IMG/VR virus record: IMGVR_UViG_3300028883_000148
Location: 1 to 21,023 of that record
DNA: 21,023 bases
Strand: one strand, 5' to 3'
Origin: a virus
In this document: positions 2,739-15,919 of the stretch, in pieces
How the letters are laid out: each line of letters begins with the position of its first letter
Position numbering within the stretch: the first letter of the stretch is position 1
The notes under the pieces: generated by a model
The model's input: the letters and a program-made list of their open reading frames with translations, nothing else
Database searches by the model: none
What the model was told of the DNA's origin: nothing
Program-made: the position numbers and the translations under genes

Positions 2739-3257
2739 ATGTATTATCGAAAATATATCGACGAAGATCCGGAGGTTCCCGTGACCTATTTACTCGGAAC
2801 GGTCGCCAGTTCCCTCAGTAATTATGGGACAAAGACGATCATATCTGCACTTGCATCTCTGATCGGAGTAATCGTCGGGCCGTGGAACCCGGTATATACG
2901 GCGGCGATTATTCTTCTCCTTGCAGATCAAGTGACGGGAACGGTTTCCTCGATAACAAGGGGCGAATTCTCGGCAACGGTCCTCGGCAAAAAGACAGCGT
3001 TCAAGATCATTATCTATGGTATTGCCTTTATAATGGCCCATCAAATTGCTCAAATTGGCTATAATACCGAAGGTTCAAGGCTTCGCGATCTCTTTGAGTT
3101 CCATCGCCTTCTCGTAAACTTTGTCGCGACGTGGATTGCAATTACGGAGTGGGAAAGCGTCGGGAAAAATATCCGATCCATCGGCGGGCGATGGCCCTCA
3201 ATTGCGTCGCTTGTTGCGCTTGGGTTCAAAATCAAAAAGATTCTGAAGGGCAAATAA
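2739..3257 (+). CDS. Phage holin (holin family 4-like)
   Basis: 172 residues. Hydrophobic segments lie near residues 35-47, 52-63, 88-106 and 125-136. The pattern L-L-A-D-Q-V-T-G, a short polar stretch with G-x-x-S-A-T-V-x-G-K-K, then a hydrophobic helix and I-T-E-W-E-S-V-G-K-N-I resembles the phage holin_4 / Cp-1-like family. These proteins open the inner membrane at lysis so that the endolysin can leave. It overlaps the next gene (TAATG) and is followed by the endolysin. A second in-frame start, GTG at 2781 (codon 15), has a better SD (GGAGG, 5 nt spacing) than the first ATG. The extra 14 residues are strongly charged, as in dual-start holin/antiholin pairs. Confidence 0.75.
   Translation: MYYRKYIDEDPEVPVTYLLGTVASSLSNYGTKTIISALASLIGVIVGPWNPVYTAAIILLLADQVTGTVSSITRGEFSATVLGKKTAFKIIIYGIAFIMAHQIAQIGYNTEGSRLRDLFEFHRLLVNFVATWIAITEWESVGKNIRSIGGRWPSIASLVALGFKIKKILKGK
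2771..2783 (+). promoter_or_regulatory. Internal SD and GTG start of the holin
   Basis: GGAGG at 2771-2775 stands 5 nt before the in-frame GTG at 2781. Use of both starts would give a 172-residue and a 158-residue product from one gene. Confidence 0.45.
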
Positions 3258-3475
3258 TGTTCAAGACAAAAAGACAGCGAGCGACATATATCGGAATCTT
3301 TTCGATTTTGTTTATAGTCGGATTGAGTTCGATCCGTCCGGAGATTGGTTCGGTTTCAACGGTCGCGATTGGTGCGATTGGAACAATGGTTGCCGGATAT
3401 ATCGCCTCTCAGGGAGTAAGTGATACGTGGGGCAAAGATAATCCAAACAGGAGGACCGATGAGCAGGAAGCTTGA
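3257..3475 (+). CDS. Small two-TM membrane protein
   Basis: 72 residues, starting at the ATG that overlaps the holin stop (TAATG, 3255-3259). Residues about 10-27 and 33-50 form two hydrophobic segments rich in Ile, Gly and Val. The N-terminus is basic (K-T-K-R-Q-R) and the C-terminus charged, with R-R near residues 65-66. The gene overlaps the start of the endolysin by 17 bp. Its position between holin and endolysin, small size and topology suggest a holin-like or antiholin-like accessory protein. No family was recognised. Confidence 0.7.
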   Translation: MFKTKRQRATYIGIFSILFIVGLSSIRPEIGSVSTVAIGAIGTMVAGYIASQGVSDTWGKDNPNRRTDEQEA

Positions 3476-3974
3476 AGACCTTAATCTCGAGACCCGTGGA
3501 AAGTGTCGCAACGTTCTTTCACTTTGTGAAGCCCGGGGAATCGATGTTGTTCTTCTGAATACCCGACGAAGCTTCGAGGAACAGGCAAGGCTTTACCGGA
3601 AGGGAAGATCGATCTGCAAGATCCAAGAGAAAGAGGATGAGCTTCGCTTCAAATGGGGGCGTCCTGATCTTGCAGAGATCTTGATCAACGTCGGACCGCA
3701 AGCCGGGAAGTTGATTGTAACGAACGCCGGACCGGGGCAATCGATTCACAACTATGGAGGAGCGTTCGATTCCGTAGTACTCATGAACGGGAAGGCGGTC
3801 TGGGAGATCAACGACGGCGTGAACGACGAGGAGGAGCTTGAACTCTGGAATCGTTACGGCTCAATCGTCGAAGAGTGCGGTCTCGAATGGGGAGGGCGAT
3901 GGACTGATCCAGCCGATTACCCTCACGCTCAAGAGCCGGGCGTGGACTGGCGGGATCTGATAAGGGCGGGATAA
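3459..3974 (+). CDS. Endolysin, peptidase M15-type (L-Ala-D-Glu / D-Ala-D-Ala peptidase)
   Basis: 171 residues from the ATG at 3459, preceded by AGGAGGA at 3449-3455. An earlier in-frame ATG (3420) lacks an SD and lies deeper in the previous gene. T-R-R-S-F-E-E-Q-A-R-L-Y-R-K-G-R (residues 35-50) is the classic N-terminal signature of M15C-type phage lysins. S-x-H97-N-Y-G-G-A-F-D104 supplies two zinc ligands, and the third is H156 in the segment following W-G-G-x-W. The enzyme cuts stem peptides of peptidoglycan. There is no signal peptide, so release depends on the neighbouring holin. Relative to short M15C lysins it has an insertion of about 30 residues around 52-90. Last gene of the + operon. 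Confidence 0.88.
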   Translation: MSRKLEDLNLETRGKCRNVLSLCEARGIDVVLLNTRRSFEEQARLYRKGRSICKIQEKEDELRFKWGRPDLAEILINVGPQAGKLIVTNAGPGQSIHNYGGAFDSVVLMNGKAVWEINDGVNDEEELELWNRYGSIVEECGLEWGGRWTDPADYPHAQEPGVDWRDLIRAG

Positions 3975-4004
3975 CCGTCGCTTCATGTACTCTCCCTTGC
4001 GAAA

Positions 4005-4031
4005 GAGCCCGGGCGTCGCGCACCCGGGCTC
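4005..4031. terminator. Hairpin between convergent operons
   Basis: A perfect 9-bp inverted repeat, GAGCCCGGG (4005-4013) and CCCGGGCTC (4023-4031), with a 9-nt loop. It separates the + strand lysis genes from the - strand genes and can form in both transcripts. Neither side has a clear T-run, so intrinsic termination is likely but not textbook. Confidence 0.6.
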
Positions 4032-4038
4032 GATTCAT

Positions 4039-4566
4039 TTACATCTGTTCGACTTGTTTTCGATATTTTTCGAAAGCCCAATTGAGAAGATCATTATCGC
4101 GTAATATGGAATTACAATCCTCCAGGCGCGACGACTGAAAAATAAGATCTCCGCCACCGTCAACAAGATCAAGAATCCCGTATTCGTCGAAATGCCCGAA
4201 GTTATCTTGTGTTGGATCCTCGTATCGGACAACCCAGAAAAACTCCCCAGACTTTTTCGTCGGGTGATATTTTGAATGAATACTTACTTCATGGACAAAA
4301 ACATGAGAACGAAGGATTCCAAGAGCGGCCTCTTTCTCACGCCGGGCGATTGCCGCGTTCGCAAACATAACCGCCTCTTCAATCTTTGTGAGGGCGAGCG
4401 ACTGTTCACGGCTCGCGGGAGTTGATCTGAGAATCTGTTGAGCAAGGTTTTTCGCTTGCTCCCGGATTGCCTCATATCTTTCGCTCTGCCCTTTAAAAGG
4501 GGCGTGATATGTAAAGCAAAGATCGATTTCATCAACTTGGGTTTCCCGTAAGCGATAATTAATCAT
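4039..4566 (-). CDS. Acb2/Tad1-like cyclic-nucleotide sponge with extra C-terminal domain
   Basis: 175 residues, with AAGGAG before the ATG. Residues 17-76 carry the hallmark of the Acb2/Tad1 hairpin family: F-T-Y-H-x-P, G-Q-x-E-R-Y-E-x-I-R-x-x-A-K, then S-R-E-Q-S-L-A-L-T-K-I-E-E-A-V-M-F-A-N-A-A-I-A-R. Known members are phage proteins that bind and sequester cyclic oligonucleotide or cADPR-type signals, blocking CBASS or Thoeris defence. The typical Acb2 is about 95 residues. Here about 90 further residues follow (roughly 88-175), mixed alpha/beta, with F-F-W-V-V-R-Y and an acidic, Asp/Gly-rich middle, not recognised. The signal bound by this protein is unknown. It is the last gene of the - strand operon, next to small accessory genes, as is usual for anti-defence genes. 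Confidence 0.82.
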   Translation of the reverse strand: MINYRLRETQVDEIDLCFTYHAPFKGQSERYEAIREQAKNLAQQILRSTPASREQSLALTKIEEAVMFANAAIARREKEAALGILRSHVFVHEVSIHSKYHPTKKSGEFFWVVRYEDPTQDNFGHFDEYGILDLVDGGGDLIFQSSRLEDCNSILRDNDLLNWAFEKYRKQVEQM

Positions 4567-4579
4567 ACTCTCTCCTTGT

Positions 4580-4798
4580 TTACTTCCTCGGTTTATGTTT
4601 GAAGCTTCGGACCGACTTCATTATGGCCCGGTCGTGGCGTTCTTGATACATTCTTTCGTCAAACTCGCGATCTCCCGCCTCTTCCTTCCTGCGGTCAATC
4701 GTACAACGAGAACACTCGCCCTTTACGCTCAACCATACAACCTCGCGACTACAAGTCTCACATATTTTCGGAGCGTTCGATCCAGTTGTCTTCGACAT
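4580..4798 (-). CDS. Small zinc-ribbon protein
   Basis: 72 residues. Two Cys pairs, C13-x2-C16 and C29-x2-C32, form a likely zinc ribbon, followed by a very charged C-terminal tail of Arg, Lys, Glu and Asp. GAGG lies 6 nt before the ATG. The gene overlaps the 3' end of the nuclease gene by 41 bp. A nucleic-acid or protein-binding role is plausible but unproven. Confidence 0.65.
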   Translation of the reverse strand: MSKTTGSNAPKICETCSREVVWLSVKGECSRCTIDRRKEEAGDREFDERMYQERHDRAIMKSVRSFKHKPRK

Positions 4799-5270
4799 TG
4801 TCGCCTCTGAGTTTTTTCGGCTTTCTCTGAAAAGATCTGAATCTGAATGGGTAACGCGATGCCGCGATCCTGAACTTTACCCGGGCGTCTTCTTCCCACC
4901 CTCGCGGTCCCTTAATCTCGATCAGTTCGATCGTTCCGTCGTTCATCATTATATCGAAGTCTGGCGTATAGAAAACAGTCGGCTTGTGATCAGGATCGGA
5001 CACTACAAGCTTAATTGACTCAAACGAGAGCCAAGTAATTCGACCGTCTTGATATCGCGGAAGAATCCACTCAAGAAAGAACGCCTTCTCCGTCTGATTC
5101 ATCTTCCCGGGGCGGTGAACGCCGCGAGCCTTTGCAGTCGAAGTAGTTTGCTTCTTCTGGGTCGATCTCTTGGTCGAACTCTGGGAACTCGATTCGAAGA
5201 GATGAGGATTCCTCTTCTTGATCCCGGGCTTGCTCAGGATCGTCTCCGCTTCTTCCTTTGTCAGCGGCAA
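4758..5270 (-). CDS. PD-(D/E)XK family nuclease (DUF1064-like)
   Basis: 170 residues from a TTG at 5268-5270, chosen because GGAGGG ends 4 nt upstream; the open frame also has a TTG at 5294 without an SD. After a Ser/Lys/Gln-rich linker (residues 25-56), the core has E61, Y-T-P-D104-F, and E118-I-K120-G. This is the PD...ExK arrangement of the PD-(D/E)XK fold, followed by a helix and basic C-terminus. The layout resembles DUF1064 and related phage nucleases, which are thought to act on DNA junctions or ends; substrate here unknown. The N-terminal N-P-H-L segment is also common in this group. The first 200 bp overlap the upstream ORF in another frame. Confidence 0.75.
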   Translation of the reverse strand: MPLTKEEAETILSKPGIKKRNPHLFESSSQSSTKRSTQKKQTTSTAKARGVHRPGKMNQTEKAFFLEWILPRYQDGRITWLSFESIKLVVSDPDHKPTVFYTPDFDIMMNDGTIELIEIKGPRGWEEDARVKFRIAASRYPFRFRSFQRKPKKLRGDNVEDNWIERSENM

Positions 5271-5457
5271 GCTTCCCTCCGATCTTGTCAGCAATCACGA
5301 TAATGAGATCCGCCTTTTCGCGAACCTGATTCGCCGCAACCAGCAAATGAGTACGGGACTCTTCATCTCCAATCTCGCCCGCGACGGCATCATAAAACGA
5401 TGCAGACGAACGAAGCCAGTCGGCTGAGATCCGTAATAGCGATGGGTAATCTTTCAT
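5071..5457 (-). CDS. Hypothetical protein overlapping the nuclease gene
   Basis: 128 residues, starting at an ATG coupled to the upstream stop (ATGA at 5454-5457). The SD is weak. Residues 1-60 look like a helical bundle with a hydrophobic I-I-V-I segment near 53-56. From about residue 65 the sequence is very acidic (E-E-E, D-P-E-E) and this half lies in the 200-bp overlap with the nuclease gene in another frame. No family was recognised. The N-terminal half outside the overlap has normal codon use and would otherwise leave a gap, so a gene here is likely. Confidence 0.55.
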   Translation of the reverse strand: MKDYPSLLRISADWLRSSASFYDAVAGEIGDEESRTHLLVAANQVREKADLIIVIADKIGGKLAADKGRSGDDPEQARDQEEESSSLRIEFPEFDQEIDPEEANYFDCKGSRRSPPREDESDGEGVLS

Positions 5458-10468: not shown

Positions 10469-11170
10469 TCAGTAAAGCGGAAGCTCCTGAGAGAGGCTCT
10501 GGGATATCAGTCGACAATAATCCGCCTTTGATTCGATCAGAACAGCAGATCGACCGAGACGCTTTGCCGCGATTCCTGTTATTCCAGACCCGGCGAACGG
10601 GTCGAGGATCGTTCCGCCCGGGGGACAATGCAGTTCGATGAGCTTCCCGATCAGTTCGTACGGTTTCGGCGTCGGATGCCCGACGGTCTTCGTCGGGTTG
10701 TATACCCTTTGATAATCGAGGATATTCACAACGTCGCGACCGCCTCCCCAATAATACGAGCCGTTCATTGTCGCGAAAAAGATGAGATCAAGAACCGGGC
10801 GATATCCCTTGTCAAGATTCCCCATTCCCAAGAGAACCCGATTCCATCCAAGAACCTGAACATTCGGGAACAGGTCGAGAATGAGCTTTCCGATCTCGTG
10901 GGTTACCCGGTAATGAGTTGCCGACGCGAACAGGAGAAACGTACCATCTGGCTTCATGAGCCGGGGAAGTTGCGGAAGAACTTCGCGGAGAAGAGCGAGA
11001 GTCTCGTCTGATTTATCATTCATAATGATATGAGACTTCTTCCGAGTCTTTTTAATCCGATGAGATTCGTAGTCTTGCCCGTACGGCGGATCGGTAAGGA
11101 TCAGGTCGAACGACCCGGTCGGAAGCGTCGGCAAGACGTCGCGGCAATCGCCCTCGTAAAGCTCTTTCAT
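10469..11170 (-). CDS. DNA methyltransferase, N4/N6 beta class
   Basis: 233 residues. The catalytic motif D27-P-P-Y30 comes first, and the AdoMet-binding motif D-P-F-A-G-S-G (about 190-196) comes near the end, as in beta-class N6-adenine and N4-cytosine enzymes. H-P-T-P-K-P lies between them, a typical feature of this family. It transfers a methyl group to adenine or cytosine in a DNA site not deducible here. No restriction-enzyme gene adjoins it, so it is likely an orphan phage enzyme protecting phage DNA. Its ATG overlaps the upstream stop (ATGA). Its 3' end overlaps operator-like sequence of P3. Confidence 0.9.
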   Translation of the reverse strand: MKELYEGDCRDVLPTLPTGSFDLILTDPPYGQDYESHRIKKTRKKSHIIMNDKSDETLALLREVLPQLPRLMKPDGTFLLFASATHYRVTHEIGKLILDLFPNVQVLGWNRVLLGMGNLDKGYRPVLDLIFFATMNGSYYWGGGRDVVNILDYQRVYNPTKTVGHPTPKPYELIGKLIELHCPPGGTILDPFAGSGITGIAAKRLGRSAVLIESKADYCRLISQSLSQELPLY

Positions 11171-11711: not shown

Positions 11712-13235
11712 TTACTTCTTGATCTTCCCGTCTTCGATCGGGATCGCGAGAGGACCGATCGACCGTCGGGTCGTGTACCAAAGTTGTGCTCCGGATTCCG
11801 TGATCATTGCCTCGATTATTGCGTACGATCGACCGGCGATCTGATCGGCTTCGTCTGCAATCACGAGCGGGAACTTGGATCCTCGGCGGAGCGGGATCGC
11901 GAGAACCGCTTGGAGCTGTTCAATCCCGGAGCATTGTGCAAGCGGAATATCGTTGATATAAACGCCGTCTTCCCGGAATTCCATACCCTCGACCGGAAGA
12001 TCCGCCCGCTTCATTGCGTCGTAACGCTCTCGTTCGAGGCGGGCGAGTCCCTTCTTCAGATTCGCGTATCGCCGTTCAACCTTCTCGAGTTCTGCTTTAT
12101 GCTCAAGAAGCTCGCCCTTCAGACGGACCTTTTCATTCGTACGATCAATCGATTCAACCCGGGAGCGGATATTGTCAACGTCGGGAAGGTCGCCGATCTC
12201 TTCCCGGCTCTGTTCGAGATCAATTATCTCGGATTCGGTCGAGGACTTCTCTGTTTGAAGAGCCTTGAGCCGGTCGTTCTTCTTTTGGGCTTCGGCAAAA
12301 TAATTGTCGCCGAGTTCTTTTTTCTTGGCCTTCGCCTCTCCCTTGATCCGTTCGATCTCGCGCTGTTCCCAGTCGTCAACTTTCGCAGTTGAAGAATTGA
12401 GTATTTCGAGATCTTTGTCGAACTCCGCCTTCAGATCTTCAATAACTTCGGGGATCTGTTCAAGCCGGGCCTGCTTGCTTGCAATGTCGTTCTCGATCTT
12501 CTCGGCGGTCTGAATGATCCGGAGGGCCTCTTCCTGTTCCTCAAGAAGCTCGGTTGTCGTGATATACTGATCAGGTGTTTCCGGCGGGATCTCTTCGAAG
12601 TTGTCAACGATGCCCTGAAGATCACGGCGACGCTTGTTCAAGACCTTCCGCTTCGCTTTAATCTTCTCTTGTCCTCGAGAGTTGCGATCGAGATCGATAT
12701 CAACGTTCACGATTGAAAGAAGTTCCTCGACTTGCTTTTTCGGGTCTTTGCGAAGAAGCTCAAGGAAGTCGAAGCCGAACCGGGCACCCATAGCATTGAG
12801 TTCGGTCTGCTTGGCTTTTACGTCTTCCTTGCCGACTTCGTGAACAATGTTCACGGTAAGGGTGGGCGTTTTCTGTTCTTCGGTCTTCGGGTCGATCAAC
12901 GCCTCGAGAATAACCTCGCGACGCGGAATACGCTTCGTAATGTTCCCTTCTTCATCGAGTTCAACGTCGCCGATCTCTGCTTTCGCGAATCCGTAAAGCT
13001 CGCCCTTCCGGAGGAGCTGTTTCGGAACCGCTCCGGCACCCTTAAACATCGATGCCAGAGTCCTCAAAACAGAAGACTTGCCTTGCCCGGTCTCGCCAGT
13101 AAGCTCAACCATATTCCCGGCGGGCTCGATTACGAGTTCCTCGATCCCGAGAATATTCTTGATCTCAAGACGAAGTATTATCCACTTACCCGGATCTTCG
13201 GGCGTTCCCTCGTTGAACTGCAATTCCTGATTCAT
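11712..13235 (-). CDS. RecF/SbcC-like AAA ATPase with long coiled coil
   Basis: 507 residues with GGAGAACCG before the ATG. The N-terminus has L-R-L-E-I-K-N-I-L-G-I and Walker A G47-E-T-G-Q-G-K-S54. Residues about 175-405 are long, charged, heptad-like coiled coil rich in Glu, Lys and Arg. The C-terminus has L-A-Q-C-S-G-I-E-Q-L-Q-A-V-L (signature-like) and Walker B V-I-A-D-E-A-D (458-464). This is the architecture of SMC/Rad50/RecF-type phage ATPases working in recombination, repair or end processing. It lacks a visible hinge zinc hook. A partner nuclease could be encoded elsewhere in the genome; the exonuclease at 8445 and the nuclease at 4758 are candidates. Confidence 0.8.
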   Translation of the reverse strand: MNQELQFNEGTPEDPGKWIILRLEIKNILGIEELVIEPAGNMVELTGETGQGKSSVLRTLASMFKGAGAVPKQLLRKGELYGFAKAEIGDVELDEEGNITKRIPRREVILEALIDPKTEEQKTPTLTVNIVHEVGKEDVKAKQTELNAMGARFGFDFLELLRKDPKKQVEELLSIVNVDIDLDRNSRGQEKIKAKRKVLNKRRRDLQGIVDNFEEIPPETPDQYITTTELLEEQEEALRIIQTAEKIENDIASKQARLEQIPEVIEDLKAEFDKDLEILNSSTAKVDDWEQREIERIKGEAKAKKKELGDNYFAEAQKKNDRLKALQTEKSSTESEIIDLEQSREEIGDLPDVDNIRSRVESIDRTNEKVRLKGELLEHKAELEKVERRYANLKKGLARLERERYDAMKRADLPVEGMEFREDGVYINDIPLAQCSGIEQLQAVLAIPLRRGSKFPLVIADEADQIAGRSYAIIEAMITESGAQLWYTTRRSIGPLAIPIEDGKIKK

Positions 13236-13534: not shown

Positions 13535-13878
13535 GAGATCTCTCCGGAATTGGTATCTTTGCCCGCCTCCGGGGAGATCGTTGTTTGTGGGTTGTTTTTT
13601 ACTTCATAAAACAGGGTTCCTTTAAGTTCGTCGAGAAGGTCTTCCAATATTTGCGACTTTTCATAGCCGAACGATACCCAAGCAAGATTGCCTTTTCCGT
13701 CTGGAATATCTTCTCGATAAAAGAATCCTATTTTAACCGGCGACTGAAGATCTCGGTAGAACTTGAATCCATTATCAAGAAGGAACTTTTCAATCCTTTT
13801 AACCGCCTCGATTGATTCTTGAATATGGTTCAGGTCTTCCGTGATCGCTTGCGGAATATTCTCGATAAGCCTTCTCAT
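13531..13878 (-). CDS. Hypothetical protein (115 aa)
   Basis: 115 residues, ATG overlapping the helicase stop (ATGA at 13875-13878), so it is translated with the helicase from P1. N-terminal helices (I-P-Q-A-I-T-E-D-L-N-H-I-Q-E-S-I-E-A-V-K-R) are followed by a strand-rich part with F-F-Y-R-E-D-I-P-D-G-K-G and W-V-S-F-G-Y. Composition is lower in GC than the neighbouring helicase. No family was recognised. Confidence 0.6.
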   Translation of the reverse strand: MRRLIENIPQAITEDLNHIQESIEAVKRIEKFLLDNGFKFYRDLQSPVKIGFFYREDIPDGKGNLAWVSFGYEKSQILEDLLDELKGTLFYEVKNNPQTTISPEAGKDTNSGEIS

Positions 13879-15884
13879 ACATTCTCCTTCCCGGCGATCA
13901 GTTCGAGAAGATCTTCCGGATATTGCCGACGATACTTCAGAACGATAGCCCGCCCGAGGATCGCTTGCTTCGGCGTGAGGCTGTTCTGGCGGGCGAGTGA
14001 GTGTCCGATCCGGATGTCTGCCTTCGAGAACCCCATGCCGTCTTCAGAGAATGCTCCGTCGCAATACCGGGCAACGATCCGGAGGGCGGAATGAATCGCG
14101 GAGATCTGTTCGTCTGTAAGCTTCGCCGCTTGTTCTTCGACGTGGCGGCGGGAGAGAGCTTTTGTTGCGGCTTCATCTACCTCGGCGGCGACTTGTGCTT
14201 CGAGGGATTCAAGGTCGATATCAATCGAAGATTTATCGATCTGATTATCGAGGGCTTTGTCGATTACTTCCTGTTTGTTCACAATGGCCCGGGCGATCTC
14301 GGCGTCGAGGCTTCCTTCAAGTACGATATGCTGAACAAGAACTGAGTTCGCTTGCCCGATACGGTGAGCCCGGTCTTCGGCTTGTGTCACATTCCCGGGA
14401 ACCCAATCAAGCTCCGCAAAGACGACGTGAGACGAGGCGGTAAGCGTCAAACCGACGCCCGCTGCGATAATGTTCCCGACGAAGAGCTTCACTTCCGGGT
14501 TGTTCTGGAATTCTTGAACCGCCCGGTCTCGCTCCTGCATCGGAGTCTCGCCGGTAATCCGAACCGTCGACCCGGGCAAGTCTTTTTCGATCGCTTTGAT
14601 AATCCCGTCGATTACGTCTTTATGATGAGCGAAACAGATCACTTTCCCAGACGAATCAATCGCGTCTCGGAGATGTTCAACGACGAACGGGATCTTCGAT
14701 ACAGCGGTATCGTGGCGAACCTTACTCATTTCAGAAAAAGCGGCAAAGCTTCCCTCGTTCAATGCCCGGACCGCCGCCCGGTAATCGTCTGGATTATCGG
14801 AAGCTTTCGCCAGTTCAACGGCATCGCGAAGACGGCTTAGATAATCCTCTTTAGCTTCGTACGCCGCTCGTTCGGACGCAATCGCGGAAGAGGAACCGTT
14901 TGAGGGGAGTTCAATTACTTGTCGGATCTTTGCCGGGAGTTCGGTAAGAACCTCGCTTTTCAGCCGGCGAACCATTATTGAAGACCGGAGCTTCTCCTGA
15001 AGTTCCTCGAGGTTCGACGCTCCCGATACGTCCCATCCGAACCCGTTATAATGCTTATCGCAGTATCTCGAAGTATAATAGTGCCAGCTCTTCCACGTCG
15101 CCGGATCGAGGGCATGAATGATCGGGAACAGTTCGACCGGTCGATTCACGATCGGCGTACCGGTAAGAAAGATCTTCCGGCGAGCCGGAATCGGCTCAAC
15201 CTTCTTCTCTGGATCTTTATTCCACTTACCAAAGACGGAGATCGTACGTTGAGCCTTCGGGTTCTTCAGGTAATGAACTTCGTCGGCGATCAATAAGTCC
15301 CAAGTAACGGCGTTGAGAGCTTGTTTGTGTTTTGTCAAGACGTCGTAATTCACGATCACGATATCAGGGTTCCCGGCGGGGTAATTCTGTTTAACAATGA
15401 TTCCGATCGATAACTTCCGAACAAGCCATTTGATAAGCTCTCGCCGCCAGTTCAGACGAAGCGAAGACGGACAAATAACGAGAACCCGTTTGATCGTCGG
15501 GTCTGAATTGATCACGCCGATCGCTTGAATCGTCTTCCCGAGACCCATCTCGTCTGCGATCAGTGTCGAAGGGCGACCGGAGGCGAATGCAATCCCGGCT
15601 TTCTGAAAAGGGAGGTAGTTAAGCCCTTCCGGGCGGGGAAGTTCAACGTCGGCGGAAGTCGCCCGGGACGCCTCAAGGCTTTCCCGTTTATGGCGAACAA
15701 TCTCCTCGAGGGCATTCTGGAGGTCAGGGTCGGCATACTTGCGGAGCTTGAGAGCCTTCTCCGGGTCGTCTGTTCTCCATTGCTTGAGCTTGCCGGACCA
15801 ATAGAACCCGGCGGCTTTCGGAATATGACGTTCCTCATACGTCGATTCCGCGACAAAAAAAGCGCCTTCTTTCAAAAGCTTCAT
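13875..15884 (-). CDS. SNF2-family DNA helicase/translocase
   Basis: 669 residues from the ATG at 15882-15884; an earlier ATG (15899) overlaps the SD GAGGAGAG and is rejected. Residues 1-60 form a small HARP-like domain (strand, K-A-A-G-F-Y-W, W-R-T-D-D-P). Motifs: Walker A D-E-M-G-L-G-K-T (about 111-118), D-E-V-H (201-204), G-T-P-I-V-N-R, then V-G-L-T-L-T and D-R-A-H-R-I-G-Q. This is the two-lobe SNF2 engine; phage versions resemble SMARCAL1-type annealing helicases and may remodel forks. A C-terminal region of about 100 residues is not recognised. Promoter P1 lies directly upstream. Confidence 0.88.
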   Translation of the reverse strand: MKLLKEGAFFVAESTYEERHIPKAAGFYWSGKLKQWRTDDPEKALKLRKYADPDLQNALEEIVRHKRESLEASRATSADVELPRPEGLNYLPFQKAGIAFASGRPSTLIADEMGLGKTIQAIGVINSDPTIKRVLVICPSSLRLNWRRELIKWLVRKLSIGIIVKQNYPAGNPDIVIVNYDVLTKHKQALNAVTWDLLIADEVHYLKNPKAQRTISVFGKWNKDPEKKVEPIPARRKIFLTGTPIVNRPVELFPIIHALDPATWKSWHYYTSRYCDKHYNGFGWDVSGASNLEELQEKLRSSIMVRRLKSEVLTELPAKIRQVIELPSNGSSSAIASERAAYEAKEDYLSRLRDAVELAKASDNPDDYRAAVRALNEGSFAAFSEMSKVRHDTAVSKIPFVVEHLRDAIDSSGKVICFAHHKDVIDGIIKAIEKDLPGSTVRITGETPMQERDRAVQEFQNNPEVKLFVGNIIAAGVGLTLTASSHVVFAELDWVPGNVTQAEDRAHRIGQANSVLVQHIVLEGSLDAEIARAIVNKQEVIDKALDNQIDKSSIDIDLESLEAQVAAEVDEAATKALSRRHVEEQAAKLTDEQISAIHSALRIVARYCDGAFSEDGMGFSKADIRIGHSLARQNSLTPKQAILGRAIVLKYRRQYPEDLLELIAGKENV

Positions 15885-15919
15885 CGATTCTCTCCTCATA
15901 ATTCAATGAACACAAAGGA

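Follow-up and report, generated by a model that had tools for sequence, protein, structure and literature searches.

A phage Acb2/Tad1-type hairpin protein with an orphan C-terminal extension

Phage sponges are usually minimal proteins. The Acb2 protomer comprises a short N-terminal helix and two long antiparallel helices, whereas in Tad1 a beta-sheet is followed by two helices (PMC12043709). In Acb2 of phage T4, Phe82 base-stacks on the bound dinucleotide and an alanine mutant of Tyr8 does not bind (PMC12657218), while the substitution T68M is described as lowering binding affinity (PMC12657230).

The protein described here is encoded at positions 4039-4566, reverse strand, of a virus contig of 21,023 bases (IMGVR_UViG_3300028883_000148), the whole of which was analysed and is referred to below as the window. 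The open reading frame, taken from the ORF listing, encodes 175 residues and starts at an ATG with a good ribosome-binding site directly upstream (4567-4578, reverse strand; of the acaaggagagag or AAGGAG type, as read from the sequence). It is the final gene of a leftward block, which meets a rightward holin-endolysin block (2739-3974; Phage_holin_4_1 and Peptidase_M15_4) at a G+C-rich stem-loop at about 4005-4031, between the convergent endolysin and hairpin genes. The region 3990-4045 folds at -27.2 kcal/mol with a z-score of -3.7. The stem-loop is probably a terminator, although it was missed by a terminator consensus scan and has few T residues in its tail. The same leftward block encodes a DUF1064/resolvase-like protein (window 4758-5294), an N6/N4 DNA methylase (10469-11170), an AAA-like protein matching phrog_1499 (11712-13235) and an SNF2-type helicase (13875-15899), the nearest relatives of which are those of Thermus phages MN1 and phiLo at 38-39%. 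No sister phage of the contig was found when IMG/VR was searched via the helicase or the resolvase.

Residues 19-75 (4342-4512, reverse strand) matched the profile PF24729, Acb2_Tad1_hairpin, over all of its positions (1-58 of 58) with an E-value of 2.4e-17 and 63.3 bits (65.2 bits in a genome search), far above the curated cut-off of 27 bits; phrog_1454 was matched at E 1.2e-22. None of 14 control genomes yielded a match to the PF24729 model, and the hairpin match is therefore not attributable to chance. When the hairpin family was sought in 398 genomes of one phylum, the sole match over the cut-off was the starting genome itself. A profile built from 25 hairpin members and compared with the PDB recovered 'Acb2 homolog 43' (9ptq) at E 7.6e-11, Tad1 chains at about 2e-5 and T4 Vs.4/Acb2 at 0.025. 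Alignment to T4 Vs.4 with hhalign gave a probability of 90% and a shared helix-2 motif, residues 56-74 aligning with residues 64-82 of T4 Acb2.

Structure prediction with AlphaFold2, using an alignment of 73 sequences (the protein and 72 relatives), placed helices at residues 4-17, 27-48 and 53-88, with block means reaching pLDDT 98; the single-sequence model (pLDDT 46) was too poor for use. Confidence was highest over residues 31-70 (pLDDT 96-98), in the hairpin domain, and lower for the short N-terminal helix (4516-4557, reverse strand; block pLDDT 76-80). These predicted helices correspond to the described Acb2 protomer, and a Tad1 sheet would precede the hairpin, where helix 4-17 alone is found and there is no room for a sheet. 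Residues 1-88 thus belong to the Acb2 sequence family and have the predicted Acb2 architecture of a short helix and a long helical hairpin. An earlier sequence-only reading had proposed an Acb2/Tad1 hairpin at residues 17-76. The profile matches bear out this assignment and the model folds as expected for the family; the layout is that of Acb2 and not of Tad1. Among viral models (BFVD), the nearest Foldseek matches were annotated Acb2/Tad1 hairpin proteins, and a Foldseek search of the PDB returned nothing below E 0.5. A VIA-align match to T4 Vs.4 (Z 6.8, rmsd 5.8 over 66 residues) was given no weight, since simple helical hairpins reach similar scores and the comparison scarcely probed the tail region.

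By hhalign, Thr60 aligns with Thr68 of T4 Acb2, and the family-conserved residues F18, Y20, H21, P23, R35, R53, E54, T60, E63, N70 and R75 are all present. The position of T4 Phe82 is occupied by Ala74, as in most of this hairpin subfamily, and the counterpart of T4 Tyr8 is Tyr20 or else His21, the choice hanging on one gap. Two further positions depart from the family: residue 68 is Phe where 95% of 133 members have Trp, and residue 24 is Phe where 73% have Lys.

At 175 residues the protein is not the small stand-alone protein that is typical, if not strictly defining, of Acb2. Beyond the hairpin lie 98 residues (78-175; 4039-4335 including the stop codon, reverse strand), slightly more than the 90 or so estimated in the sequence-only reading. 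The aromatic strand (GEFFWVVRY) and Asp/Gly segment (DLVDGGGD) noted in that reading are both present. Among 186 distinct other hairpin sequences, fewer than 10 residues follow the hairpin in 170, 10-29 in nine, 30-59 in four and at least 60 in three; this sample is weighted towards the nearest hairpins and is no unbiased census. The present tail was common to none of these 186. A last scan employed the full protein for confirmation, so that a sister with the same tail should have ranked high, and none was seen among the best 80.

C-terminal additions to the hairpin are already known in other phages. In MalagasyRose gp5 the hairpin is followed by phrog_2864 (E 2.7e-8), in KimJongPhill gp38 by phrog_20502 (E 4.9e-10), and a hairpin protein on an IMG/VR contig (L473) has a tail of 133 residues. 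The architecture is therefore not in itself new, only this particular tail. Hairpin proteins of between 134 and 195 residues also occur in the BFVD library. The tail of the IMG/VR protein (IMGVR_UViG_3300009784_000079, 1522-2124) consists of an acidic linker and then about 75 residues that by eye resemble a bacterial Ig-like domain; Pfam matched the hairpin alone. In Cohnella sp. GbtcB17 (L218) about 92 residues lie in frame before the hairpin and have a sub-threshold match to PGDYG (E 0.0047), a possible N-terminal fusion. In L044 the hairpin gene runs at its end into an ORF of 127 residues (3192-3575) with no Pfam match, the two overlapping at an ATGA junction. Genes downstream of other hairpins shared no family, and none resembled the tail.

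In Paenibacillus phages Hayley, Vegas, Likha, Heath and others, the stand-alone hairpin is labelled 'phosphomannomutase', evidently a misannotation of an Acb2/Tad1 protein of about 70 residues. Cyanophage S-2L, a phage with 2-aminoadenine DNA, has an unannotated ORF of 71 residues of the Acb2/Tad1 hairpin type (MW334946.1, about 35199-35414; about 1486-1701 of locus L003; tblastn E 2e-12). It lies in the space that separates S2L_47 from S2L_48, and its end is overlapped by the start annotated for S2L_48.

Codon statistics favoured frame 0 in both halves of the present gene (0.17 in the N-terminal and 0.13 in the C-terminal half), the other two forward frames scoring negatively in both (-0.07 and -0.58 in the C-terminal half). 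Residues 1-88 and 89-175 form a single continuous coding unit. No in-frame ATG, GTG or TTG occurs in codons 77-174, which means that the tail cannot be an ordinary gene of its own that was joined on through a lost stop codon. Its third-position G+C is 0.39, lower than in 98% of equal windows in other genes (1.8% are as low), a weak hint of a separate origin. The tail is acidic, with a net charge of -6. Both AlphaFold2 runs, single-sequence and with alignment, gave the order strand-strand-strand-helix-helix at low confidence (pLDDT 46-70).

Searches with the tail returned no match in Pfam, PHROGs, NCBIfam or PADLOC at the sensitivity used, only a chance match among PDB sequences (E 0.66), and no relative by tblastn in 50,697 phage records at E-values up to 10. 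No relative was found in IMG/VR by peptide patterns or in GTDB contigs, and none was accepted from the records of 50 phages with a hairpin or helicase. No family searched backs the possibility, raised in the initial reading, that a known Tad1 subgroup has this tail as a standard part. With these searches, contig collections would reveal close relatives and curated families moderate ones, and distant relatives may therefore exist. Several candidates were rejected: a match among those 50 records (in G052; E 0.0014) lay antisense to a likely real gene, a match of 47% over 19 residues in L044 was within no plausible gene, a degenerate two-motif DNA scan gave chance matches only, and a suggested likeness to small phage proteins that begin with HTPGPW was borne out by no profile match. 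An Acb1-like 2H phosphoesterase was also considered; such enzymes need two H-x-S/T motifs, and the tail has one H-x-T (His-Pro-Thr) and no Pfam match. As no other motif was recognised, the sequence does not support an enzymatic role for the tail, and the suggestions of the sequence-only reading that it could cut the signal or act on a second defence found no backing.

The reading favoured here, at somewhat better than an even chance, is that of a cyclic-nucleotide sponge of the Acb2 type to which an accessory domain has been added, the latter capping or tuning the assembly. By analogy with the family, the helical part would form a hexamer, and the hexamer would sequester cyclic di- and/or trinucleotides from CBASS-like defences, so that the effectors would not be switched on. 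From its position, the tail would most likely pack on the outside of the ring and cap the pockets or tune assembly or ligand choice, rather than act as an enzyme. In T4 Acb2 the ligand-stacking Phe82 is located at the far end of the second long helix, and here the tail emerges where this helix ends, its domain starting about 15 residues beyond residue 74, which aligns with Phe82. Against this reading stand the ambiguous equivalent of Tyr8, the replacement of Phe82 by Ala74, the substitutions W68F and K24F and the low-confidence fold of the tail, and a domain of 98 residues on each protomer could disturb the known hexamer contacts.

A dual function, in which a normal helical sponge carries by fusion an independent module directed at a host protein, nucleic acid or a second defence, is possible if rather unlikely. 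The unrelated tails of MalagasyRose, KimJongPhill and L473 suggest that the hairpin tolerates unrelated cargo, and the low third-position G+C is a weak sign of separate origin; however, no relative or motif indicates any target, and the acidity of the tail disfavours nucleic-acid binding. It is improbable that the hairpin serves solely as an oligomerisation scaffold that binds no nucleotide, with the tail as the working part: the alterations at positions 68 and 24 and the uncertain Tyr8 equivalent would fit such a role, but the other near-invariant hairpin residues are kept, Thr60 included. There is a similarly slim chance that the tail is an undescribed domain cooperating with the sponge; it might, for instance, degrade the nucleotide once trapped or block a second defence, and the whole would then be a two-in-one anti-defence protein. 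A sequencing or assembly frameshift joining a stand-alone hairpin gene to its neighbour is very unlikely: a TGA stop in another frame does lie directly after ATCGCCCGGCG, the point at which sister proteins terminate (IARR/IARN), and the same fusion was found in no other phage, but the tail has no start codon with which to form an ordinary gene, one frame carries the coding signal throughout and the strong stem-loop follows the annotated stop.

If the favoured sponge with an accessory domain proves to have a tail that is a mere stabiliser, the protein would represent a minor structural variant. Stable, differing extra domains would instead make the hairpin a platform for added functions, and would directly test whether fusion can confer sponge specificity or a second anti-defence activity. 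The protein is of moderate interest, since its tail is an orphan with a function that truncation could readily probe.

Among described proteins, MalagasyRose gp5 and KimJongPhill gp38 share the order of a hairpin and then a small C-terminal phage domain, although their tails, phrog_2864 and phrog_20502, have no similarity to the present one. The nearest phage relatives are the stand-alone hairpins of Paenibacillus phages (Pahemo, Sitara and others), with 51-62% identity over the hairpin; unlike the present protein, they have 68 residues and end at the hairpin. Tad1 (8kbh, 7uav) belongs to the same hairpin family and has the helix-2 motif SRE..AlT..EEA.m in common, but its beta-sheet precedes the helices (PMC12043709), whereas here a helical segment of 17 residues comes before the hairpin and the added domain after it. 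The closest solved sequence to the family profile, Acb2 homolog 43 (9ptq), is likewise a helical hairpin, but is a stand-alone protein of 76 residues with no tail. Relative to Acb2 itself (T4 Vs.4 and gp24 of a Pseudomonas phage; PF24729), known members of which have about 90 residues, the present protein carries 98 extra residues and has F82 and possibly Y8 replaced, while sharing the short N-terminal helix, the two long antiparallel helices, the helix-2 motif and the equivalent of T68.
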